Assembly: GCA_019746175.1 (NCBI GenBank)
Contig: JAIESH010000136.1
Span: forward strand, 1-34,397
DNA from: Candidatus Altimarinota bacterium
GTDB lineage: Bacteria; Patescibacteriota; Gracilibacteria; BD1-5; UBA2023
Length of the DNA: 34,397 nucleotides
Direction of reading: 5' to 3'
The translations under genes were made by a program, and so were the position numbers. This document shows positions 18,088 to 31,899 of this stretch, piece after piece (position 1 is the stretch's first letter; each line of letters starts with the position of its first letter). A model generated the notes under the pieces. The model was not told the origin of the DNA and searched no databases. It saw nothing but the letters and a program-made list of their open reading frames with translations.

Positions 18088-18202
18088 ATGAGAGTTGTAT
18101 TATGCGTATAGATTGAGTATATCAGATAATGCCCTATAAAGAAAAATAAGATGAGTATTTTGCTCAAAATTGATTGACATAACATCTAATGCTAATTCTG
18201 AA

Positions 18203-18237
18203 AATAATAAATCCCATCAGAGATGGGATTTATTATT
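18203..18237 (-). terminator. Hairpin terminator
   Basis: A 15-bp perfect stem (18203-18217 with 18223-18237) with a 5-base loop. It begins at the stop of the His-rich peptide gene. Confidence 0.85.
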
Positions 18238-18388
18238 AGTGATGTCAATGATCATGTCATCCATCATTTCAATCACAGATACCTATAGTTGTAAATCGTA
18301 CTCATTCTGTAAATAAGCCGCATACACTTTTCATTACACTTGGTCCGCTATGACTACTCGCTGCCGGTGCCTCATGGTGTCATGACAT
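18236..18388 (-). CDS. 50-residue His-rich peptide
   Basis: ATG at 18388 to TAA at 18236, with five UGA glycines in 50 codons, so it is invisible under the standard code. The N-terminus has SGHHE and the C-terminus HDHGHH; seven His, two Cys (C23, C38) and several Asp suggest metal binding. A weakly hydrophobic centre contains VCGLFTEGVRFTTIGIC. There is no signal peptide. It has a consensus promoter upstream and a strong terminator exactly at its stop, which supports it as a real transcription unit. It is the last gene of the LemA/DUF3137 cluster. Function unknown. Confidence 0.7.
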
Positions 18389-18418
18389 ATATTATAGGGT
18401 TAATTTTAAATATGTTAT

Positions 18419-18447
18419 ATAATATACCAATTTAATATAATTGTCAA
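18419..18447 (-). promoter_or_regulatory. Promoter of the His-rich peptide gene
   Basis: Minus strand: TTGACA (18442-18447), 17-base spacer, TATTAT (18419-18424). It starts just past the stop of the DUF3137 gene (18453), so the peptide can be transcribed alone. The leader is about 25 bases. Confidence 0.7.
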
Positions 18448-18452
18448 TTTAA

Positions 18453-19805
18453 TTATGTTTTTAGAACGTAGCGAGTTAAGAGTCATCCTATAATTCATGT
18501 TTTACTATTTTTTTGATTGGTAAATGCAATAGGGGTTACTTGATGGATTATTGAGCCATTGTTTTCAATCGATTTAGTTGTATCAGTTTTTGAAAGATAC
18601 ATGAGATTCATATCATAGGTAAACTGTATAATCTCACGCATATCTGCATAAAATTGAGTAAATCAAGCGAGGTTTGTGAGCATGTTTTTTTCAGTTCATG
18701 CTTCTAGATAGTTTCCCTTAATTTGCCTTTTTATGTACATAATATTATCTCTTAAAAGGAACTCGTAACTATTACCTGTTTTATTTACAAATGATATAAT
18801 CCGATCCATGAATGCAGGAGTGATAATCATACGACTTGTTACTTGATCTTCGCATTTTACATCGAAAAGTTTTTCAAATTCCATATTTTCTAGTTGTACA
18901 CGGTTTGTATTAATATTTTTCTGATAAAAGTAGTGAATACTATATCATATACATCCGCCAATCATCAAGCTCGTGAATATCAGTGTTCATGAATTTATGA
19001 TTACCAATGAAAGTATTACTAAACTAATAGTTGTTCAGAAGAATAGTCCAAGAATAGGAAATATTAATTTATTTGATAATCAAGAGTCCGCAATATCATG
19101 TGTTATAAGTAAATCACTTGATAGTGGTATTCTTGCGTGTGGAAATGCTGCTCGCATCAAATAACAATGATTGGTGGTTACGCGTCTTCTATTTTTTCCA
19201 CTACCTCTTACTTCAGAAGTTTCGAGTTCAAATCCATTTACTGAAAAAATCTTTCAATCTTTTTCTATATCAAAGTGTACTGAATCCTCCACTCGATCCA
19301 TACTATCATATGAGTCTATAAATTTCTTTGATCTCAGATCCTCCACTTCATCAAATGAATACTTGCCATCATAGCTATATTCCAGTTTTGAATAGAGTAT
19401 TGGGCACATTTTCTGTAATACTTCACTTTTGAGGGGGATCTCGATTTTTGATGAAAATTTACTATACAAAAATCCAATTCCAAGTGAATATGATCCAATT
19501 GTTGACCATATTACTGGTGCAAATGCATCATCTCAGGTTCCAATTGTAAAAAATAATCCACTAATCAATCTTGAAAAAATATTCTCTCAAGTTCAGAATA
19601 TATATGATAATGTTAATGCAAGTATAGTGCATCATCCGTAGATAACATATTTCCAATTTTGACGTATTTTTCTTTGTTCTTCGATATCTTCAAGTTGCTT
19701 TTGTATTGTTGGATCCTGAAAAAGTCCGTTTAGAGATGTGATTTCTTCTGGAGAGATATTTTTTCTCGATGCTTCAGGTAGTGTTCCAAAATCTATATTG
19801 AACAT
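18453..19805 (-). CDS. DUF3137-family membrane protein
   Basis: A 450-residue protein. A cytoplasmic N-terminus (PEEITSLNGLFQDPTIQKQL) is followed by hydrophobic segments near 52-100, a soluble domain, two more hydrophobic segments near 255-300, then the family signature MEFEKLFDVKCEDQVTSRMI and ITPAFMDRI. Family members commonly sit beside LemA; their function is not established. It begins 11 bases after the lemA stop, so the two are cotranscribed. UGA glycines are frequent in the membrane segments. Confidence 0.85.
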
Positions 19806-19816
19806 ATGTATATAGA

Positions 19817-20425
19817 TTATGCAGTAAACATTGCTTTGGCATCCATTTTTTCTACTTTTGCAACCGCATCAGCCTCAAACATATTATATTCAGAAATCTT
19901 GATCATCTTTGCTACAATACTTGATGGGAACATCTCTTTACTGTTGTTAAGTTGTTTCACTGCAGAGTTATAAGCACGACGTGCTCATTGAAGACGATCT
20001 TCAATCTCACTCCATTGAGTTTGTAGTTCTAGAAAATTAGAACTTGCCTTTAGGTCTGGGTAATTTTCAGCTATTGCGAAAATTGATTTCATGCTAGCTT
20101 GTAATTCATTTTCTTCAGAGAAACGTTCTTTGCTTCCTTTATTAGTACTTGATATCAGCTTTGATCGCATTTCTGATACATTATTCAGGAGAGATGCTTC
20201 GTGAGACATATATTGTTTCACTACTTCTACAAGATTAGGAATGAGATTATATCGATTTTGTAGCACAGTATCTATTGCTGAAAAAGCTTCTTCAGTAGTA
20301 TTTTTTGTATTAATAATTGAGTTGTAAGTTACAATAAAATATATCGCAACAATAATCCCTATGCCACCAATTCCAAAAAACGTATTTGTATACTGACCAA
20401 GAAGACCAAATGTTTGAGTTTCCAT
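19817..20425 (-). CDS. lemA: LemA family protein
   Basis: A 202-residue protein, typical LemA length. One N-terminal membrane helix (GIGIIVAIYFIVTYNSII), then the conserved helical core: AFSAIDTVLQNRYNLIPNLV, VKQYMSHEASLL, AIAENYPDLKASSNFLELQ and RRAYNSAVKQLNN. The start at 20425 is preferred over an upstream TTG at 20455, because that extension falls in a terminator hairpin. LemA proteins are membrane-anchored helical proteins of unclear function, repeatedly found with TPM-domain and DUF3137 proteins, both of which occur in this cluster. Confidence 0.95.
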
Positions 20426-20447
20426 AATAATTATATTAAAAAAATAA

Positions 20448-20465
20448 ATACCCAAAATAGGGTAT
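20448..20465 (-). terminator. Weak hairpin terminator
   Basis: A 6-bp stem ATACCC/GGGTAT with a 6-base loop is followed on the minus strand by a T-rich run. It lies between the stop at 20497 and lemA and may only attenuate readthrough. Confidence 0.5.
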
Positions 20466-20496
20466 CATGTTTTAAATATAAAAGCAAAAATTCGTT

Positions 20497-21204
20497 TTAT
20501 GTCTTTACGAGTACTCTCTGTAATTCCTCGAATTGCTCGATTTGTTTATCGAGTCTGGTTTTCTGAAGTTCAGAAACTTGATCGAGTTCAGTTGTTCACT
20601 GGATGTTTTCTTCGACTTCGGATTTGGCTGATTTGAGAGATTTCTGTTGTTCTGTGAGTCGGATTGATAGATCGGAACGGAGATTTATCAGTATTGATAA
20701 TACCCATTTATCAGTATCCTTCATAAGTGATGAAAAAAATGGTACTATGTTTTTTGTGAAAATACTCAGAAATATCTGCGATCGTTGTAATGTTTTTTGT
20801 AATTCTTTAATTTCTGAAGTTTTTTCGATAATTGCATCAATACTTTGAATTGTTAATATATCAGAATCTATAGTAATTCCGAGTTTTATAATAGTTTCTG
20901 ATATATGGTTTATTATAGTTATTGTTGGCTTTATAAAAATGTTTTTTCAAATATAAAATACTATGATATATATTATATAAGAGCCAATTCATAATACTAT
21001 TATTAAAATAATAAATATGATGATATCATTAATTATATAGTCTTCAGCAATTAGTGCGAGTACGAAAAAACATAACATAGACATGGGAAATATTAAAAAA
21101 AACGAAATTAATATTCCAATTTTTGATATTTTTTCATGAAAATCTTTTTTAAGTTTAGTTTCAAAGTTTTTATATTTTGATATCGGAAATGAATAATCGT
21201 TCAT
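20497..21204 (-). CDS. Membrane coiled-coil protein, tandem paralog A
   Basis: A 235-residue protein. Two hydrophobic stretches (about 28-55 and 60-85; ISFFLIFPMSMLCFFVLAL, IIIFIILIIVL) precede an alpha-helical region. The C-terminal ~60 residues are Lys/Glu/Gln-rich coiled coil (KSEVEEN, ELDQVSELQKTRLDKQ, QFEELQRVLVKT). The C-terminal block is almost identical in the next two genes, while the N-terminal membrane parts differ. It is therefore one of a triplicated set directly downstream of an AAA+ ATPase. No named family was recognised. Confidence 0.8.
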
Positions 21205-21248
21205 ATTTTATTACTTAATTTTTTAGATTTAATTCTTATAAATATAAT

Positions 21249-21899
21249 TTACACCTTTACTAGAACTCTCTGCAATTCTTCGAATTGCTTGACTTGATTG
21301 TCAAGACGGATTTTTTGGAGTTCGGAAACTTCTTCCAATTCAGGGGTTCATTTGATATTATTTTCTACTTCTAATTTAGCTGATTCTAGGATTTTTTGTT
21401 GTTCATTGATATGTACTCCTAAGTCATTCTTGAAATCAAATATTACTTTTTGAAATTCTCTAATGTTGTGATCTACAAATCCTTGAATATCAAATTTTGA
21501 GATATTCCCAAACTTACTAATAATTTTTAGTAATATAGAATACTTGAGATAATATAGATTATCATATCATTTATCGATATTTATGATCAATGTCTCTATC
21601 TCATCATAGCCCTGAATACTAGATTGTATTCTTGGAATTTCTTTATATATTTTTATAGTATTGGTAAGTTCGATAATTTCCTTCTTTAATGGTGATAATA
21701 TTATTGTAGTAATTAATAGAGCTGGTACTATAGATAATATTAGCCAGATAATTAGTTGTATTTGATTCGCATAAAAAATAAGAATAAAAATTATTACCAT
21801 TGCATAATCAAATAAAATTTTATATTTGATGCTCTCAAAATATTTGATATACGAATTTTGTAATATAAAATAGTTTTTTTCAATATTTTTAGTTTCCAT
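21249..21899 (-). CDS. Membrane coiled-coil protein, tandem paralog B
   Basis: A 216-residue protein. Two hydrophobic segments (about 29-46 AMVIIFILIFY and 50-68 LIIWLILSIVPALLITTIIL) are followed by a helical middle and the shared C-terminal coiled coil (AKLEVENN, ELEEVSELQKIRLDNQ, QFEELQRVLVKV). It lacks the ILINLRSDL/YLNNLRSDL motif in the form seen in paralogs A and C (here FDFKNDLGVHI). The 59-base gap to gene C and 44-base gap to gene A fit a cotranscribed array. Confidence 0.8.
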
Positions 21900-21958
21900 G
21901 AAATTAATTACAGTAAAAGCATTTTTAATATATCAGAAATACCTCAAATAAACAAAAA

Positions 21959-22708
21959 TTAAACTTTTACAAGAGCTCTCTGTAATTCTTCGAATTGTTC
22001 GACTTGTTTATCGATTCTGATTTTCTGAAGTTCAGAAATTTTTTCTAGTTCAGTAGTTCACTTGATATTTTTCTCGACCTCGGATTTCGCTGATTTAAGG
22101 TTGGATTGTTGTTCCTGGAGACGAATAGCGAGATCAGAACGGAGATTATTAAGATAAAAAATAATTTTATATGTTGCCTCTTTTAAATAGTCTTGTAGCA
22201 TATTTTTATATTTTTTACTTCATATGAGGAAATATAAATAATTCATATATCCAATTATTCTTACAAAGCTATAACTACTCTGTATTTTTGAAAGAATTTC
22301 AGATATTTCCTCTACTTGATTTTCAGTATTTTCTAATAGTTTTTCTATGGATTCTATTTTAATAATTGTGAATCTAAGAACGATATTATATATTCAGAAA
22401 AAAACCAGTGCTATTATAGTGAGTATAAATATTAGCGTTGCAATATTTATTAATCAATTATCACCAATATTCAGTATTACAGTAAAATGTGTATTAAATA
22501 ATATATCACCAATACTTAATAAGGTGCCAATAATTAGATATAGTACCATTACTATGCTTACAGGCATAATTAATACATATATTAATTTTGAATACATACC
22601 TTGTCCAGCTTCTCTTATTATTTTGTGTATTGGTGATTTTTTGCTTTTCGGTTTTTGTGTTATTTCCGTATTGAGCATATTTAACACTTTTTCCTTTATT
22701 GTGGACAT
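21959..22708 (-). CDS. Membrane coiled-coil protein, tandem paralog C
   Basis: A 249-residue protein. A basic cytoplasmic N-terminus (TQKPKSKKSPIHKIIREA) is followed by two hydrophobic segments (about 43-66 and 88-105), a central helical part with EKLLENTENQVEEISEIL, then NNLRSDLAIRLQEQQ and the shared coiled coil ending QFEELQRALVKV. It starts 10 bases after the AAA+ ATPase stop, so it is translated with the ATPase. A scaffold or adaptor for the ATPase is inferred from position only. Confidence 0.8.
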
Positions 22709-22718
22709 AAATATATAA

Positions 22719-23999
22719 TTACTTAATTTTCTCGAGCCAACTTTCGTAAATACCCATATCTACCATCTTGAGGGATGATGGAGTTTCTTGTATGGTTCTT
22801 TGGATTGATTCCATAGAGATACTATGTCATGAGAGATCCTTATCAGTGAGCTTTCCTGTTTCGGCTTCATCGATGAGTTCAAGAAGATCTCTTGATGCAT
22901 CACGTGCAACCTCATCACAGATGGCCTCTATATCAGCAGAAACGTATCATTCTGATAGCCTTGAGAGTTCCTCATAATTCAGTTTTTTATGAGGGCGACC
23001 TGCCTTTTCTATGTACATCTCAAATAGAGCCTTACGAGCGACATCATCGGGTGGTCCGAGATATATCTTCTTATCAAGACGGCCAGAGCGGAGGATAGCA
23101 GAATCAAGATGATCTGGGCGATTGGTCGCAGCGATAACTATGAGATTTGGAGCTGTCTCGAGTGCATTGAATTCTTGGAGAAATTGTGAAACTTCTTCAG
23201 CTTTATTTGCATCTACATTGCTCGTTCTTGCAGATACAAGAGAATCGATCTCATCGAGGAAGAGAATAATTGGTTCTTTTTCTGCAGCTTTTTTTGCTCA
23301 TTCGAAAAAGTCTTTGATATTTTTGGTAGTTTGATGCAGATATGATGATCCGAATTCACCCATATTTTTTGAGATAAATCCACATCCGAGTTCTTCAGCG
23401 AGTTTTTTTGTGATGAATGTTTTACCAGTTCCAGGAGGCCCATAAAAAAGCATTCCTGTGGGTATGGAGATCTTGAATTTCTCGTATTCAGAGTAGAGTT
23501 TGAGTATGAGTTCATGTTTTGTGATATCTTCTGTAGTTTTGTCTTCAGATGATTCATTATTCTTGAGTTTTTCCACCATGAATTTGAATCTGAGTGGCTT
23601 AATGAAACTATCTTTGAGTTCATTTTTGAGTTCATCCATTCCAGCAACTGCCTCAAATCCCCATGGTTTTCATTCTTTCCGTATAAAATGCTGTACTTCA
23701 ACAGTAGGTTTTTCTGTTTCATCTTTTGCATTTCCAGTTTTTGGCGGCGTGACTCACATAGATGAATTATCTCTTTGAATTTCTTTTCCTCTTGATGATA
23801 ATTCATCTGTTGCAAAATTTGTATTTAGCTCATTCATGAGTTTACTTGCATGATTTACTCATGATTGCATCTCTAGAAGTGATTTTTCTAGAGCATCCAT
23901 CGAATCTCATTTCCAATCTTTTGTGACTGCAGATTTGAATTCTGGGGATGTGGTGATGGCTTGGAAAAATGCATCGAAGCCAGTATCTTTTTGAGACAT
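22719..23999 (-). CDS. AAA+ ATPase
   Basis: A 426-residue protein. The N-terminal ~120 residues form a helical region with no known domain. The AAA module follows: AGMDELKNELKDSFIKPL, Walker A GPPGTGKT at 187-194, Walker B LFLDEIDS near 247, ATNRPDHLDSAILRSGRLDK with sensor and arginine-finger residues, and a C-terminal helical lid (YVSADIEAICDEVARDA). The sequence is of the FtsH/p97/Vps4-like class but lacks a protease domain, MIT domain or membrane helix. It is encoded between one membrane coiled-coil gene upstream and three downstream, suggesting it acts on or with them at the membrane. Confidence 0.92.
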
Positions 24000-24016
24000 A
24001 TATTAATTGTTATTAA

Positions 24017-25234
24017 TTACTTTGATACAGTGAGTTTTTCTTTGTATTCGTTTAGAATTTTTTCTATTTTAGAGAAGCTCTCTACCTGAAGAATGAGACG
24101 ATCTTTCTGCATGAGTAATGGAGATTTTAGGTGTTTTTCTGTAGTATTTAGGATTTGTTCTTCTATGGAATCAATGGTTGATTGTAGTGTTTTATGATTT
24201 TTTTTAATAAGAGTTAGAATTGAATCGATTGGTTCAAGTATTTGAGTTTTTATCCAGTTACCGTATTTAATAAAATTAAAAATATCTTTATATTCTGATG
24301 ATTCAAGAATCTTTCTGAGTTCTATACTTTTATCTGTTGCGTTTGATGCGAGTGAATTGATGAGTTCTAGTGATTCTCAGATTTTACCAGATAGATTCTC
24401 TTTCCATTCATCACGTCAGGCCTCATGGAGGAGTGTTACTGTAGTTTTTTGTCATTCTCTCAATGAATCAGAGCTTAACTGAATATCTCCAAATAACGTT
24501 TGGATTTTATGTTCAGTATTACTGGTCATGAGAAGATACTGATGAGCGAGTCATGAGAATATCTTACCAAAAAGAGATATGAAAAAAATTCAAATAAAAT
24601 ATACAATTGCCATCATCGCAGCATAGAGAAATCAAGCCACGAGAACTACAATTACAATTCATCCCGAATCTTTAGATCTTCATACTTGCTGTAGTATTTT
24701 TCATCATCCCATGGCCACTTCTTTGAGACTTTCAAAAAGTTCGGTTTTGGCTTTTATTTTTTTGTCCTCTAGTTTTGACTCACCGAGAAATGGTTCATCA
24801 AATATAGTTTCAATTTTTTTAAAAGCATTTTTCGTAGATTCTGTGTCTGATTGTTCCAGGATAGTTCATCCGGATACGTAGTGATTATCAGTAATAACCA
24901 CATTGGCTCATCTCGTATAGATGTATGATCTATAGAGAAACTTGATGAGTAAGATAATACTTACTATCGTGTAGAATACACCCAGTACTGCAAGCACTGC
25001 AATCATAGTTCCAATTGGCCCACCAGAGAATCATATGAATCCAGCAATAATTGTGATTATCGCCAAAGGAATACTAGAAGCTTTTACTATTTGTAGGTAA
25101 TCTTTCTCGAGTGTCATCTGAAGTTCATCTGATGAAATCCATTCATGAAGATAGAATCCTCGTTCATCCACAATATTTGCTATATCAGTAATACTTTTAG
25201 ATTCAGGGATTGGTGTAAGGGTTTTGGTTTGCAT
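24017..25234 (-). CDS. Membrane coiled-coil protein, distant relative of paralogs A-C
   Basis: A 405-residue protein. Hydrophobic segments near 54-72 and 75-98 (IPLAIITIIAGFI, IAVLAVLGVFYTIVSIILL) and a further region near 190-215 (IVIVVLVAGFLYAAMMAIVYF) are followed by a long helical C-terminal half (LSSDSLREGQKTTVTLLHE, LESSEYKDIFNF). It ends MQKDRLILQVESFSKIEKIL, which matches the spacing of ELQKTRLDKQIEQFEELQRV in the tandem paralogs. It ends 18 bases before the AAA+ ATPase start. Two membrane parts plus a C-terminal coiled coil again fit a membrane platform for the ATPase. Confidence 0.75.
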
Positions 25235-25240
25235 ATATAA

Positions 25241-26800
25241 TTATTTTGATTGTCTATAAAAATGATATCCAGAATCTCTGTATAATGGTAAAAAATATTG
25301 ATATAAATTGTCTCATCATCAGTTATATTCGGCAATAATTTTTTGATATGTGTACATTAGAAAACTATCAGCTTCACTACTTCATTGATTCATAATAATT
25401 CTACCATCATATTTTTTAATATTTCATGGCAGTTTAGAAAAATCATCTTTTGTTCAATTTTTTTGACAGAGAGTCGGTCTTTTTTCTGACATTTTATCAC
25501 TACCACCAAAATGATCATCTATGAAATAAGTATTATCTAGTATTGGCTTTTTCCAATTTAAGTATGCGTTTTGCATTCTTACATTAAAAACACTAAATGT
25601 TGCATCGTATCATCGTTGTTTGATTTGTTCCTCATTAAATTTTAGCATATAGTTACTTGTCCAGCTATCTTGTTTCATCCAAAATCGATAATCATGAGCA
25701 TATCGATTTCATACTTCTTGTAATTCTACAAAATTGTAAGAATTTGGATTTTTTGACAAGTAATATCCCAGTACTTCCAATGTATAGTTTGATGCAAGGT
25801 GATTATTTTTTCAATCATACTCATATTGAGCAAGACTAAACCCTGTTGGACAAGTTTGAATAGTTGGATCTTTGTAGAGTTGAATTCCTGAAAATTCTTT
25901 TTTGGAAATGGAGAGATAATTGTTTAGATAAATAAAGTTACTATCAGAGTTTATTTTTCAAGAGAGCTCTGAATTGATTTGATTCATAAAGTCATCTCTT
26001 TGTGATTTTGTAACAGGATTCATATAACCCCTCCAGTTTTCAACATTATTTGACGTACTTGTTATTTTTTCACAAGCTACTTGATAGCTAGAATTACAAT
26101 TTACCCTATTATTCTTAAGTTCTACTCATCATCGAATTGAATAGATGAATCAAAAATTCTTTTCTCATAATGAATTATAGTTATTGCAGCTAATGCTTCA
26201 TTTTAGTGTATCCCATGCTGTATTATCTTTTGTTAACATGAGATGTGCATCTCGACTATTTTGTGAAATTTGCCATTCATTTCCAAACTCCATAGCACAT
26301 ACATCTTGGTTATTTTGTTTAAAATTTCATTTATACTTTTTTTCTGTAAGTTGGTATATCCCTTGTATTATTTTATTTTGATTTTTTTTTGAAATACCAA
26401 TCACTTCTCATTCTTTATTTCTCAATGCTGTCTGTTCTTTTGATAAAAAAGCTACATAACTCTTTAGATTATTGAGTGTTTTTTTGTAAGACTCATTAGA
26501 AGAATATTTTTTTTCGAGTAGAGTAATAGACTTATTAAGCTGGTTTAAGTAATTAATATTAATAGTAATATTTTTACTTTTATTCATACTTCAACTAATC
26601 TCTTGAATAAAGCTTGTAAGATTTTTACTGCTAGTTAATCCATTTTCTATTTTTTTCTCCAAACTTAAATTTGAAGTGATAGGATTTTTTCCAGTTATGA
26701 CGATTCATGAGAAATTATCTGAATTTTTTATTTCTACAGCGTAGCTAGTCTGTAATAAAAAAAAGCCAGATAATATTATAAATATACATTTTGTAGTCAT
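25241..26800 (-). CDS. Large secreted protein of unknown family
   Basis: A 519-residue protein. A signal peptide (CIFIILSGFFLLQTSYA) is followed by a helical ~130-residue Asn/Lys-rich region and a C-terminal domain rich in Tyr, Asn and Trp, with about six Cys (DVCAMEFGNEW, ISCNNY, VNCNSSYQVACEK, TCPTGFSLAQYEYD, TLCQKN). More than ten UGA glycines include GGGDNLYQYF near the end. No catalytic motif was recognised. It sits between telA and 24017-25234, ending 6 bases before the latter, so it belongs to the cluster. It is the only clearly secreted protein there. Confidence 0.8.
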
Positions 26801-26833
26801 CCGTATAAAAAATAAGCATATAAATCTATATCA

Positions 26834-26861
26834 AAAAAATCCTGAAAAGATCAGGATTTTT
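26834..26861 (-). terminator. Hairpin terminator after telA
   Basis: The 11-bp stem AAAAATCCTGA/TCAGGATTTTT with a 5-base loop begins 2 bases past the telA stop. It separates telA from the secreted-protein gene that follows. Confidence 0.85.
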
Positions 26862-26863
26862 CT

Positions 26864-27979
26864 CTATTTATTGAGTTCTTTTGCGAGTTCTTCTTGATCT
26901 TTTGCATTGAGAACTTTTACTTTTGCTAGTTCAGCGCTCGCATCTTCAAATGCTTTTTTTTCTGCGTCGGCCTCGATTTTTACTTGTGCTCGGTAGGCTT
27001 CTATTGTTTCAAAATGAGTCTTTAGTTTGGTAACATTTTCGATAAATACTGTCGATGAAAGTACTGGCTTAGAAGAGAGCTCTTCACTCTTTCGAGATGA
27101 TTCAATAGCCTTATCGGTGAGTTCAGAAGACATCTTGTCGATAGTTTCTCCCATAACATTGATAGCCTTCATACTGGCGTCAAGAGCTTTTTGTGAACTT
27201 GTTTCGATAAGTGCTGTCGAGAGAAGAGTTTTGAAAATAGGACGGCTAGAACTCATGGAAAGTGAGAGTTTTGCTGCAGCATCAAGTCTCATTAGAAGAC
27301 GTTTTCTCGCCATATCAAGATTTCCAATAAGTACATTCATATTCCCAATGAAATACTCTACTTGTCGGATAAACATATCAAGTTTCATCTTGGTAGTCTC
27401 ATCGGTTGTTTCGCTAGATTTTGCTTTGAATTCTTCAACTTTTTGTATGAGAAAATCTCTATACGCTACTACTTTTCCAAGATTTATATCAATTCCTTCA
27501 AGGAACTTTTTTTGCATATCAATAGAAGTATTGAGTGATGAATATGCCTGATCAAAACCAGAGAAAATCATCTCAATTTTGCCTTGAAGAGTTTGAATAT
27601 TGAATTTTGCTTCATCCCATTTTGAATCAAGAGATCTCATAAGTGATCCAAGAAGTGGAACTGCCTTTGCCATTTTCATCATTGTACCATCATTATTGAT
27701 GATTTCTTTGTATACTTCTTGAACTGATGAATTCATTTTTGAGAGCTCATCAGAAACATTCATAATTGGATCTGCATCAATAATTGTTGCGGTTTCAGCG
27801 ATGATTGAATCAAGTGGCGCAGTAATCTTTTCTCCAAGGGAACGGAAATCTGTGGCTTCTGAAAATGTTTTCTCTACTTCAGCCTGTTCAGTTGCTGATA
27901 GAGGCTTGGTTTCGATTTTTGTAAGTGTTTTAACAGTTTCTTCTTGTGGATCCTGAGTTTGGACTTGATTATCGGCCAT
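26864..27979 (-). CDS. telA: TelA-family toxic anion resistance protein
   Basis: A 371-residue soluble helical protein without UGA codons. The family core is clear: AVPLLGSLMRSLDSKWDEAK, LNTSIDMQKKFLEGIDIN, FIGNMNVLIGNLDMARKR and LLMRLDAAAKLSLSM. TelA family members are linked to tellurite and other stress resistance; their mechanism is not established. The start at 27979 (MADNQVQ) is preferred over an in-frame upstream ATG at 28108, since the extra 43 residues are atypical and span the promoter. It has its own promoter and terminator inside the cluster. Confidence 0.92.
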   Translation of the reverse strand: MADNQVQTQDPQEETVKTLTKIETKPLSATEQAEVEKTFSEATDFRSLGEKITAPLDSIIAETATIIDADPIMNVSDELSKMNSSVQEVYKEIINNDGTMMKMAKAVPLLGSLMRSLDSKWDEAKFNIQTLQGKIEMIFSGFDQAYSSLNTSIDMQKKFLEGIDINLGKVVAYRDFLIQKVEEFKAKSSETTDETTKMKLDMFIRQVEYFIGNMNVLIGNLDMARKRLLMRLDAAAKLSLSMSSSRPIFKTLLSTALIETSSQKALDASMKAINVMGETIDKMSSELTDKAIESSRKSEELSSKPVLSSTVFIENVTKLKTHFETIEAYRAQVKIEADAEKKAFEDASAELAKVKVLNAKDQEELAKELNK

Positions 27980-28032
27980 ATGAGATGATTTTACGAATAA
28001 ATGATAGATCAAAAATAGATTATATCGTGAAT

Positions 28033-28061
28033 ATTGTATTAGAAAGTGGGATTTTTTGCAA
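28033..28061 (-). promoter_or_regulatory. Promoter of telA
   Basis: Minus strand: TTGCAA (28056-28061), 17-base spacer, TACAAT (28033-28038). The leader is about 47 bases, and the promoter begins 13 bases past the stop of 28074-28523. Confidence 0.65.
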
Positions 28062-28073
28062 AAGAAAATACGT

Positions 28074-28523
28074 CTATATTTTTTCGAGAATTCTATTATG
28101 ATTTTCAAGTCGGATTACTACTAGATCCAATACAGCCTTATGTCCTAAATCTGTTGATTTCATTTTTTTTATAGTATCTTCCATAATTTGGAGCTCATCC
28201 GCATGTCGATCAAGCCAGATTTGTAAGTGCAGATTAAATTCTTTTATTAAACTCGTGAGCCACTGTTTATTATCTTTACTTTGTTCTTGGATTTTAGGTA
28301 TCATTTTTTCAAGTTCAGAAGTGAAATTGATGATACTTTGAGAAATATTGTAAATATTTATTGATCATATATCGTTATTTGCATGATCGAGATTCATATC
28401 TGAAATTACTGAAGAATACATATTCATAAGTCGTTTCTGTCTTGTTGAAAAAGAAGGACGAGAAAAATATAATATAGCAATGAATATTGCTCAAAGAAAT
28501 AAAATAAGAAAAATAGTTTCCAT
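28074..28523 (-). CDS. Small membrane-anchored helical protein
   Basis: A 149-residue protein. An N-terminal helix (TIFLILFLGAIFIAILYF) and a cytoplasmic helical domain (KKMKSTDLGHKAVLDLVV) suggest a coiled-coil protein held at the membrane. No family was recognised. It starts 13 bases after the TPM-domain gene stop and precedes telA, so a role with TPM and TelA proteins is suggested by position only. It uses two UGA glycines. Confidence 0.75.
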
Positions 28524-28536
28524 AGAGTATTATAAA

Positions 28537-29250
28537 TTAGTCACCATAACCACCGCCATTCGAAGAACCTCATCATCAGTCATAACTGGATGATGAATAA
28601 TCACTTGAACTGTTGTCGGAGTTGTAAGATGAATCATAAGAGCTATTATTGCTAGAATTATTTCATGTATCACAAGCTGAATTACTACTACCGCATAGAT
28701 AACTACCCATTGTTATGAGTCAAATCATTACCAGCATGATAAGTAATATCCATAGAAACGGCACTATTTTGCTTTGCTCTGTATTAGAATTTGATATATA
28801 TGAGTTAATTTGATTTGGATTTCAATTGGGTATATTTGTAATTTGAGTTGTCAATTCTTGCCATTTTTCTATGAGTTCTCAATATTTTCATTCATTTAGA
28901 AGTGGACGAAGATAGTTTTCTACTAAATCACGACACACCATTTCTGTGTATTTGATTTCCAGTCATTTCCCTACAATAATTCTAAGTTTTTTCTCTTCTG
29001 TGGCAATAATAAGAAGAAGTCAATTATTGAGTTCTTTTTGTCAGATACCATTTTCATTAAAAATTTTGAGTCCAATATCAATAAGTTCGATTCATTTTCG
29101 ATTTGGTATAAATATAGTAACAATTTGTTCGGTTGTCTCATATTCATGTTTCTTGAAATTTTGGTCGATGATTTTGACTTCTTCTTTTCATAGAAGTCAT
29201 GAAAAATCATTAATATATTTATCAAGTTTTGGTATCTCTAGAGGATTCAT
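28537..29250 (-). CDS. TPM-domain membrane protein
   Basis: A 237-residue protein. The TPM domain (residues ~1-130) has VKIIDQNFKKHEYETTEQIV, GIGQKELNNGLLLIIATEEK and LRIIVGKGLEIKYTEMVCRD, with the usual conserved Gly residues supplied by UGA. Then come one membrane helix (IVPFLWILLIMLVMI) and a Ser/Asn/Asp/Gly-rich tail ending SSNGGGYGD, typical of the family. TPM proteins are repeatedly encoded with LemA, which occurs about 9 kb downstream in the same direction. It lacks an N-terminal signal peptide, so the TPM domain may be cytoplasmic here, unlike most relatives. It is the first gene of the cluster. Confidence 0.88.
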
Positions 29251-29315: not shown

Positions 29316-30515
29316 TTAAAAACCTATTTTGACAATAAACTTCTTACTTTTTGTATCAATATCCATGGTCCATCCAAGAATTGTTGTAATTTTATTTACA
29401 AGAGCAAGTCCAAGTCCGTATCCAGTTGAGCTTCGTGAGCTATCTCATTGATAAAATACTTTAATGATATTTTTTTGTTCCACCTCACTGAGGTTCTTTT
29501 CAATACTATTACTGATGCTAATATATTCATTGTTTAGTATGATATCTATTTCTCATCCAGATTTGTACTTGATAGCATTTTCTATCAGATTACAAATTAT
29601 GCGAGTATAGAGATCATCGTTCGTTAATTTAGTAATATTTTTAGATTTTGATTTGAATGTAATAATTGCCTCTGTTTGATATTTTGATATTATTTCTTCG
29701 GTTTTTTTGACGAGATTGATACTTTGGTGATTATTTTTTCCATCTGGTTTTGCAAGAAAAAGCAAACTATCAATGATATGTTCCATGCCTGTGATTTCTT
29801 CATCAGTTGAATCGATAAACCGATTTTCAGGCTTGATCTTAAGTAGTTCGAGATTTGATCTCATGATAGAGAGGGGAGTGCGGAGTTCATGTGCTACATT
29901 GTGGCTATATGCTTCGAGTTCACGAGATTGCGCCTTAATAGGTTCAATGGTAATTTTAGCGAGATAGCGGGATAGGGCATATATGATGAATAATCCAATG
30001 AATGATGCAACTATAGCGATACTAAGTAGTGTTATATGAAATGATTGGAGTGGGCTAAGGTCACGAAAAAATAGTACAGAATTTGAATCTACAGTATTTT
30101 TGCTTACTAGATAATCTTTTCCATTTATCGTTATAGATGATATTATATATTTCCTTATACTGTATAGTGCATCTATATTTTCTTTGCTTAGATCTAGAAA
30201 ATCATTTTTTATGATGGTACCATGTTTTTCATTTATAACAATGAAATCTCTGGGTCATCTCTTTCTATTTTCGTTTTTTCGATCAGGAAAACTCGGTCGA
30301 TCACTCAGAAAGAGATCACGCGCTTCGGGAATACCGAGAATATTCTGAGACTCTTCTCTGAGTTCTTTTTTAATTTCTCTATAAGAAAAAATATAACTCA
30401 TTCATACTATGAGACTCAGTGTCAAAGTAAATATAAAAAAAGCTGCAATACTCAGCTTGAACGCCAATTTCTTCTCATCATCTTGTAGGTATGTATTTAT
30501 GAAATTACGTATCAT
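29316..30515 (-). CDS. Two-component sensor histidine kinase
   Basis: A 399-residue membrane kinase. TM1 is near 18-40 (IAAFFIFTLTLSLIV); an extracytoplasmic sensor of about 110 residues and TM2 near 160-182 (ITLLSIAIVASFIGLFIIYAL) follow. The H-box SHNVAHELRTPLS carries phospho-acceptor H209. The N-box is NLIENAIKY and the last box QGDSSRSSTGYGLGLALV, with its first Gly by UGA. The usual DxGxG (G1) box is degenerate (NEYISISNSIEKN). The start overlaps the response regulator stop by 19 bases, so the two are translationally coupled. The signal sensed is unknown. Confidence 0.93.
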
Positions 30516-31156
30516 GTTCCTTTTATAGTTACAATTGTTGATTTACCGAGTTTCTTCCTAATAGTTGATATATGTGCTTCAAGTGTTACTGAGTTCATAG
30601 CAAGCTCAGCTTCGCGCAGTCACCATACTGCTTCGAGTATTTCTACTTTATTTTTTGGAAAACTTTTGTTTCTACAAAGGAATTCTAGAATTCCATATTC
30701 CTTGTTCGATAGCTCCATAGTAATATCTCATTTTTTTATTATTTTTTTTGATATATCTATACTATATTTATCAAATTCTATAATTTCTTCTATTGCCTTT
30801 TCTCTTCTTCTCCCAAGTGCTATAATTCTTGCTTCAAGCTCTTTCATCTCAAATGGCTTAACTACATAATCATCTGCACCAAGATCAAACATAGTTATTT
30901 TATCAGACAGAAGGGAATTCGATGTGAGTACTATTACTGGAGTCATATCTCCATTCTCGCGTATTTTTGCGATAAATGTTTTTCCATCCATAATTGGCAT
31001 ATTCATATCAAGTACAATGATATCATAATGTGCATGTAACATTGTGAGGGCCTCTTCCCCGTGTATAGCTCACTCAGCAGTATATCACTTGATATTGAAA
31101 TATTCTATAATATTCTCGCGTATCTTCGGATGATCTTCAATAATGAGTATTTTCAT
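30497..31156 (-). CDS. OmpR/PhoB-type response regulator
   Basis: A 219-residue protein of standard length. The receiver domain starts MKILIIEDH, with phospho-acceptor D50 (IIVLDMNMP) and conserved Lys in YVVKPFE. The winged-helix DNA-binding domain has LSNKEYGILEFL and NSVTLEAHISTIRKKLG, then VTIKGTGYVIS. The true end needs UGA as Gly in GTGY; the standard code would cut it there. It is partner to the overlapping kinase. A direct repeat upstream of its promoter suggests autoregulation. Confidence 0.95.
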
Positions 31157-31284: not shown

Positions 31285-31899
31285 TTATCTATGTCATTTA
31301 TGAGACTTCATCTTATATTTTTCTCATTCAAGTTTTGAAGTTTCAAGCTTCGTTTTTACTTCAGGATATGCACTGAGCAGTGTATCAATTTTTGCTTTTT
31401 CTTCAGTTCTGAGTGCTTCTTGTTTTGTTTTATATGAATCACGTATTGCTTGTAATTCTGTTTGTACATTTGCAGGAAGTGTGGCTATGATAGCTTTTAT
31501 TTCATCATTTTTTCCTCCCTTTTTATTTCGGAATTCTTTTTGTGGCATGGCAACTTTGAGTTCAGGATATTTTACCATAAGTGCTTCCATCTCTGTTTTG
31601 AATGCTTCATGCTTTGTTTGCATTGCAGTCTTATCAATAGGCATTGCTGTCATGAGTGTATCCATTTCAGCTTTGTGTTTTGTTATAAGAGTCTGTAATT
31701 CTTGTAGTGCTGGAGCTGAAACCTTTCCTGAAAGAGTAGAGATGATATCTTGGTCCTTTTGGGGATTATTCAGATATCTCATTGCCATAGTGCTAGATAT
31801 TGCTGTTGTATCTGTGCTTGCTGCTGACATCCCAGTGGCAAGTAGTGCTGTTCCAGTAACCGCAATCGTTGCGAGTCCAATTAGGAGTTGTTTTGTCAT
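31285..31899 (-). CDS. Secreted Lys/Met-rich helical protein, Spy-like in style
   Basis: A 204-residue protein. A signal peptide (LLIGLATIAVTGTALLATGMSAAS) is followed by a charged all-helical body with internal repeats (TEMEALMVKYPELKVAM and KIDTLLSAYPEVKTKL). It ends in basic residues (KMKSHKGHR) reached through UGA. The pattern recalls periplasmic Spy/CpxP chaperone-like proteins controlled by envelope-stress two-component systems, but no LTxxQ motif is seen, so the comparison is loose. It lies upstream of the two-component operon, which has its own promoter after a terminator. Confidence 0.8.

Follow-up and report, generated by a model that had tools for sequence, protein, structure and literature searches.

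A conserved core of TelA-like protein, membrane protein and AAA+ ATPase genes in one order of Gracilibacteria

Introduction

The window analysed here is a stretch of 34,397 nucleotides from the genome of a Candidatus Altimarinota bacterium (Gracilibacteria; contig JAIESH010000136.1, positions 1 to 34,397), and its minus strand carries, from 29250 down to 18236, 12 back-to-back open reading frames (ORFs) if TGA is read as glycine (NCBI code 25); nearly all of them are broken when translated with code 11. An initial annotation of this DNA described eleven consecutive same-strand genes as a candidate envelope module combining TelA, an AAA+ ATPase and membrane coiled-coil proteins. Comparison with related genomes shows that the finding is real but smaller than first claimed: the well-supported conserved unit consists of genes for a TelA-like protein, the membrane protein cc405 and an AAA+ ATPase, to which membrane accessories sharing a C-terminal tail are added, and it is so far found in one Gracilibacteria order. 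The longer 12-gene cluster is a local extension of this core. Systems of the TelA/XpaC kind are already known; the core would be such a system with an added AAA+ motor. The core genes of the window are as follows.

26864..27979, minus strand: core gene 1, TelA-like protein of 371 aa, all-helical and soluble, orthologues 62-87% identical
24017..25234, minus strand: core gene 2, cc405, with four predicted transmembrane (TM) segments and a predicted cytoplasmic C-terminal helical bundle plus hairpin tail (AF2 model, hydropathy)
22719..23999, minus strand: core gene 3, AAA+ ATPase of 426 aa with a single classical AAA domain (Pfam, NCBIfam and PDB profiles)

Distribution and descent of the three-gene core

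The order was sampled with 59 genomes, including the window's own, of which 30 carry the TelA-like gene, 27 cc405 and 25 the ATPase. All three pairs co-occur strongly (Fisher p 3.5e-8, 1.4e-9 and 4e-10; 2e-4 to 3e-6 when collapsed to genera), and each genome with the ATPase carries TelA, cc405 or both, while cc405 is present without the ATPase in four genomes. The proposed association of ATPase, membrane coiled-coil protein and TelA-like protein is therefore borne out across the order. Elsewhere in the phylum, the TelA-like protein was found in 0 of 286 genomes and the core ATPase in 0 of 379. Two TelA-like loci (L086 and L091) lie in metagenome-assembled genomes labelled Saprospiraceae and Micavibrio, and are probably Gracilibacteria contigs misbinned there. 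A literature search for the gene combination found none, the main Ter-system paper being outside its reach.

The sister family keeps the order TelA-cc405-(small coiled-coil)-AAA with gaps that are often a few nucleotides; at loci L040 and L046 the TelA-cc405-AAA gaps are 1-5 nt, and the spacing is nearly as tight elsewhere. Scattering of the genes in relatives had been named in advance as the observation that would speak against a module, and the outcome is divided: the sister family is contiguous, whereas in several relatives TelA stands apart from cc405-AAA, leaving the core partly scattered in the window's own family. In genomes whose TelA lies elsewhere or was not detected, cc405 and the ATPase usually share a contig (G002, G029, G033, G030, G045 and G023). 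In the cc405 tree the two families are completely separate, and in the TelA and ATPase trees mostly so, a pattern consistent with mainly vertical descent accompanied by loss.

The AAA+ ATPase

The ATPase has one AAA domain (residues 183-315; PF00004, 2e-36) in which Walker A and B, sensor 1, two arginine fingers and the aromatic pore-loop residue Y220 are invariant in 16 orthologues, the invariant motifs being GPPGTGKT, FLDEID, ATNRPD and RSGRxDKK. Its nearest profile matches and solved relatives are CDC48/p97, but it has a single AAA domain in place of the two-domain plus N-domain arrangement of that group. With CDC48/p97, Vps4/CdvC and FtsH-type proteins it shares the AAA domain, the motifs, the arginine fingers and the aromatic pore loop; it differs from them in having a single AAA ring, no protease, no detected N-D1 or MIT region, and a lineage-specific N-terminal region of ~110 aa. 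FtsH would have TM segments and a zinc protease domain, but the ATPase has no TM segment and matches no Pfam peptidase family; a Vps4/CdvC system would have an MIT domain and a Snf7/ESCRT-III protein, neither of which is among the Pfam matches reported for the cluster proteins.

The TelA-like protein

The assignment of this protein to TelA in the initial annotation survives as a relationship supported by fold search and context, but the protein lies below the Pfam TelA (PF05816) cut-off. The window's protein has no match of its own to this family, and three of 28 orthologues match (best 3.2e-4) below the gathering score, which excludes membership in the strict sense. Aligned with hhalign to eight TelA proteins it gives a non-significant E of 0.046 (reversed controls 0.15-0.2), and some local hmmsearch alignments are roughly collinear with TelA. 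Only 2 of 192 genomes of the class have genuine TelA, and plasmid and phage TelA were therefore taken for profile enrichment. No meaningful sequence relatives were found in the PDB. In a Foldseek search of BFVD, four of the five best matches are phage proteins annotated as TelA, toxic anion or tellurite resistance and the fifth is unnamed; the matches extend over near full length with E values of 1e-3 to 7e-3, from a low-confidence model (pLDDT 60). The protein is thus a probable remote TelA homologue rather than a demonstrated member of the family.

In the TelA tree the window's protein is placed, with 100/99 support, beside two other genera from the family (87% identity) and not beside its genus-mates (73-77%); some exchange or mislabelling is possible. 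Genuine TelA is found in G038 (L051:1462-3980) and G034 (L052:1465-3980), in an operon with an OmpA-like and a 2-TM coiled-coil protein. None of the first three genes of this operon uses TGA for glycine, suggestive of a recent transfer from a standard-code organism. A further gene downstream in this operon resembles a periplasmic solute-binding protein.

Membrane coiled-coil proteins and a shared C-terminal hairpin

The AF2 model of cc405 (pLDDT 83, pTM 0.70) ends in two helices that form a hairpin, and three paralogous genes directly after the ATPase gene, ccA, ccB and ccC, encode proteins of a family, named ccT here, which also carry a C-terminal hairpin. Together with the small protein cc149, the features concerned are:

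24020..24274, minus strand: hairpin tail of cc405, residues 321-403 (helices 321-363 and 367-403), from the AF2 model and profile matches to the ccT tail and the cc149 family
21959..22708, minus strand: ccA, 2-TM, ccT family, conserved 71-aa C-terminal hairpin
21249..21899, minus strand: ccB, 2-TM, ccT family, conserved C-terminal hairpin; an in-frame TTG at 21947 is possible
20497..21204, minus strand: ccC, 2-TM, ccT family, conserved C-terminal hairpin
28074..28523, minus strand: cc149, 1-TM coiled-coil protein in an XpaC-like position before TelA; family of 13 members at 11 loci

Across the three paralogues and nine relatives from five other genomes, the ccT bodies are ~19% identical, whereas the 71-residue C-terminal segment is ~62% identical. 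The 12 full-length ccT tails among the 59 genomes occur in six genomes, all of which bear the ATPase, and all lie directly downstream of it. Occurrence of the coiled-coil proteins without the ATPase was a further observation that could have spoken against the module; every full-length tail agrees with the link, and the single exception is a truncated tail in G039, at the end of a contig; no ATPase was found in this genome, which is 80% complete. Two further tail fragments are seen in G029.

Profile matches among the ccT tail, the cc405 C-terminus and the cc149-family C-terminus have P values of 2.4e-4, 1.4e-4 and 2e-6, with reversed controls at 0.004-0.3. By these profiles the ccT hairpin and the diverged cc405 tail appear to be related, weakly yet consistently. 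The description of four related two-helix membrane coiled-coils fits ccA-C, which have two TM segments and a common hairpin, but not cc405, which has four TM segments and a tail that is related but has diverged. Over 191 columns the C-terminal half of cc405 further matches (P 3e-5) the 2-TM protein that accompanies genuine TelA in G034 and G038. A fold search with cc405 gave no significant match; its best natural Foldseek matches are syntaxin-type helical bundles (prob 0.97-0.99, E 0.02-0.1). No cc405 was found on plasmids. None of cc149, cc405 and ccA-C matches Pfam XpaC (PF10112), and by hhalign the cc149 family and cc405 are without similarity to Listeria XpaC.

Locus layout and accessory genes

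The remaining genes and signals around the core are listed below; the exported protein, response regulator and kinase lie upstream of the 12 ORFs.

31285..31899, minus strand: exported helical protein with weak Metal_resist (Spy/CpxP/ZraP-like) similarity (PF13801, 3.5e-5, below cut-off)
30497..31156, minus strand: OmpR-type response regulator
29316..30515, minus strand: sensor histidine kinase upstream of TPM (HisKA/HATPase_c)
28537..29250, minus strand: accessory TPM-domain protein (PF04536, 1.6e-21), no signal peptide and domain predicted to be cytoplasmic, one TM, Gly/Ser-rich tail
26835..26861, minus strand: terminator-like hairpin 3' of the TelA-like gene (shuffle z -4.0)
25241..26800, minus strand: sec519, secreted Cys-containing protein of 519 aa, a window-specific insert between TelA and cc405
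20447..20466, minus strand: terminator-like hairpin in the ccC/LemA interval (shuffle z -3.3)
19817..20455, minus strand: accessory LemA (PF04011, 8e-46), probably in a separate transcription unit with DUF3137
18453..19805, minus strand: accessory DUF3137 protein (PF11335, 4e-19)
18236..18388, minus strand: His-rich ORF of 50 aa, probably outside the module, with its own promoter-like site and terminator

As the terminator-like hairpins and a promoter-like site divide the cluster, the region probably forms three or four predicted transcription units: (response regulator-kinase-)TPM-cc149-TelA, sec519-cc405-AAA-ccA-ccB-ccC, LemA-DUF3137 and the His-rich ORF, this partition probably following the predicted terminators. 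Hairpins similar to that after TelA occur 3' of the TelA-like gene in relatives (L024, L025, L027, L028 and L030), and no such hairpin is present in several genomes of the sister family whose TelA and cc405 genes almost run together. The His-rich ORF is preceded by a strong promoter-like TTGACA-17-TATTAT and followed by a very stable 16-bp hairpin (window 18200-18240, shuffle z -7.4).

Membership of all 12 genes in a single module was rejected, as the accessories vary or occur independently across relatives. TPM lies near TelA in four of 40 loci. All three of the LemA, TPM and DUF3137 families are present in the window above Pfam cut-offs, but eight genes lie between TPM and the LemA-DUF3137 pair, and the latter two occur independently of the core. 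DUF3137 is above its cut-off in 10 of the 59 genomes. Four of these 10 lack the ATPase, and across the order the two are not associated (Fisher p 0.3); LemA and DUF3137 are adjacent in four of the 10, and in four genomes, from two genera, the pair comes after the ATPase. On account of this independence, LemA and DUF3137 were rejected as core members. The secreted Cys-containing protein and the His-rich peptide, both counted as members by the initial annotation, were not found at related loci: sec519 has no Pfam family and no homologue at any other locus, and none of the 58 other genomes of the order yielded a relative of the His-rich ORF. A metal-binding role for the latter within the module was likewise rejected, the ORF being unique to the window's genome and having its own promoter-like site and terminator.

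A kinase or a response regulator-kinase pair lies upstream of TelA at seven loci including the window, four of which (the window among them) also have a Metal_resist-like exported protein encoded ahead of the kinase; in the window, a hairpin separates the gene for the latter from that of the response regulator. Other genes found at the core vary. Proteins of ~1000 aa resembling SF2 helicases (ResIII/DEAD), with 2-4 predicted C-terminal TM segments, are encoded at L106:15272-18259(-), L097:3306-6332(-), L100:2102-5158(-) and L032:6490-9546(-). Membrane-anchored helicases are unusual. Those of L106, L097 and L100 have a partner of 353-392 aa and adjoin the core ATPase. In G019 and G033 the pair is inserted between the cc405 and ATPase genes, and in G023 it comes just after the ATPase; in G043 a related helicase adjoins TelA. 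The cc405-ATPase interval of G019 also holds genes for a channel-like protein (Ion_trans, PF00520) and for a small membrane protein (L106:18820-19497 and L106:18273-18857), and in G002 a Fic-like protein with the motif HPFVDGNGR (L095:4666-5439) is encoded upstream of cc405, flanked by two membrane coiled-coil paralogues.

Proposed function and alternative explanations

The suggestion of the initial annotation, that an ATPase acts on a membrane platform, remains the best reading of the locus. Its specific form is a stress assembly beneath the membrane, of the TelA/XpaC type and served by its own AAA+ remodeller, and has about an even chance of being correct. The membrane-anchored cc405, cc149 and ccA-C would display cytoplasmic helical hairpins, and the soluble, all-helical TelA-like protein would scaffold them at the inner membrane face. 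A hexameric CDC48/Vps4-like AAA+ ring could then grip the hairpins (or TelA) and thread or twist them, thereby disassembling or remodelling the complexes and resetting them after envelope stress. The predicted topology and the use of the tail as a docking or substrate element belong to this proposal, and the stress role is suggested by TelA biology and the two-component genes upstream. In Listeria, TelA disruption leads to higher susceptibility to nisin and tellurite (PMC12791056), and TelA has been described as building submembrane structures (PMC7824862). A bolder form, which we consider improbable at present, is tail-coded remodelling, in which one C-terminal hairpin on divergent, exchangeable membrane bodies would be a common address for a CDC48-like motor and a TelA-like scaffold, as a lineage-specific functional analogue of Vps4/ESCRT or NSF/SNARE.

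Several observations weigh against the assembly. Seven TelA genomes have no ATPase and five have no cc405; from the former it follows that TelA can act without the motor. The sequence homology of the TelA-like protein to TelA is weak (hhalign E ~0.05), and the tail homology between the coiled-coil families is marginal, coiled coils being prone to yield false matches. Membrane-protein quality control would account for part of the pattern, with the AAA+ protein as an extractase (an FtsH minus its protease, or an Msp1/ATAD1), cc405 and the ccT proteins as membrane adaptors and TelA only loosely linked. The conserved pore-loop aromatic residue would suit such a role, as would the contigs that cc405 and the ATPase share without TelA; however, TelA co-occurs with cc405 as strongly as cc405 does with the ATPase, their genes nearly overlap in the sister family, and four genomes have cc405 without the ATPase, so that we regard this explanation as unlikely.

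A conflict or defence role has been proposed for some Ter/TelA systems. The locus could likewise be a conflict or defence island, in which the AAA-membrane core would be the sensor or motor and exchangeable effectors would act against phages, neighbouring cells or toxins. The core is patchy, being in about half of the genomes, and variable genes are found at it (the SF2 helicase pair, the ion channel, the Fic-like gene and the window's 519-aa secreted protein); TelA is also known from jumbo phages, where it has been proposed to act in superinfection exclusion (PMC7824862). The ATPase scores on the PADLOC IetA models, but the match spans the generic AAA domain only and the cluster contains no IetS-like protease, which sets it apart from IetAS. 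Neither TerD, TerC nor TerB is in the cluster (whole genomes were not searched for Ter proteins). As the TelA-like protein is highly conserved (62-87%), the trees are largely vertical and the upstream genes are two-component genes and not nucleases or toxins, a defence island is a doubtful interpretation. Least probable is membrane remodelling of an ESCRT/SNARE-like kind, with the ATPase as a functional Vps4/NSF analogue taking apart membrane-deforming helical bundles: the ATPase resembles CDC48/CdvC/NSF, cc405 has the syntaxin-type matches mentioned above, and bacterial PspA/Snf7 operons with AAA+ proteins have been described (PMC11237479), but the E values are not significant, helical bundles match promiscuously, and neither Snf7, PspA nor an MIT domain is among the Pfam matches shown.

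Comparison with known systems

Like the TelA (PF05816) and XpaC (PF10112) pairs, for example Listeria lmo1966-lmo1967 and B. subtilis xpaC-yaaN, the core has the gene of a soluble, all-helical TelA-type protein beside that of a membrane-anchored coiled-coil protein, and in both the expected location is the inner membrane face. The core differs in a sequence under the TelA cut-off, in partners without a Pfam XpaC match, and in its dedicated AAA+ ATPase and tail-sharing paralogues, which are unannotated beside the XpaC-TelA pair examined. The nearest described analogue is found in PspA/Vipp1 (PSP) systems with AAA+ and TPM partners (PMC11237479). A membrane stress context, the TPM domain, the AAA+ partner and two-component regulators are common to both, but the window locus has a TelA-like protein in place of the PspA/IM30 domain, for which no match was found among the cluster proteins.

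Significance

TelA proteins are widespread, and tolerance of toxic oxyanions and of drugs that act on membranes has been linked to them; how they work is poorly understood. With TelA genetically tied to a protein-remodelling motor, and with a small hairpin as the likely docking element, TelA function becomes biochemically testable. The core would also show how the reduced Patescibacteria cope with envelope stress.

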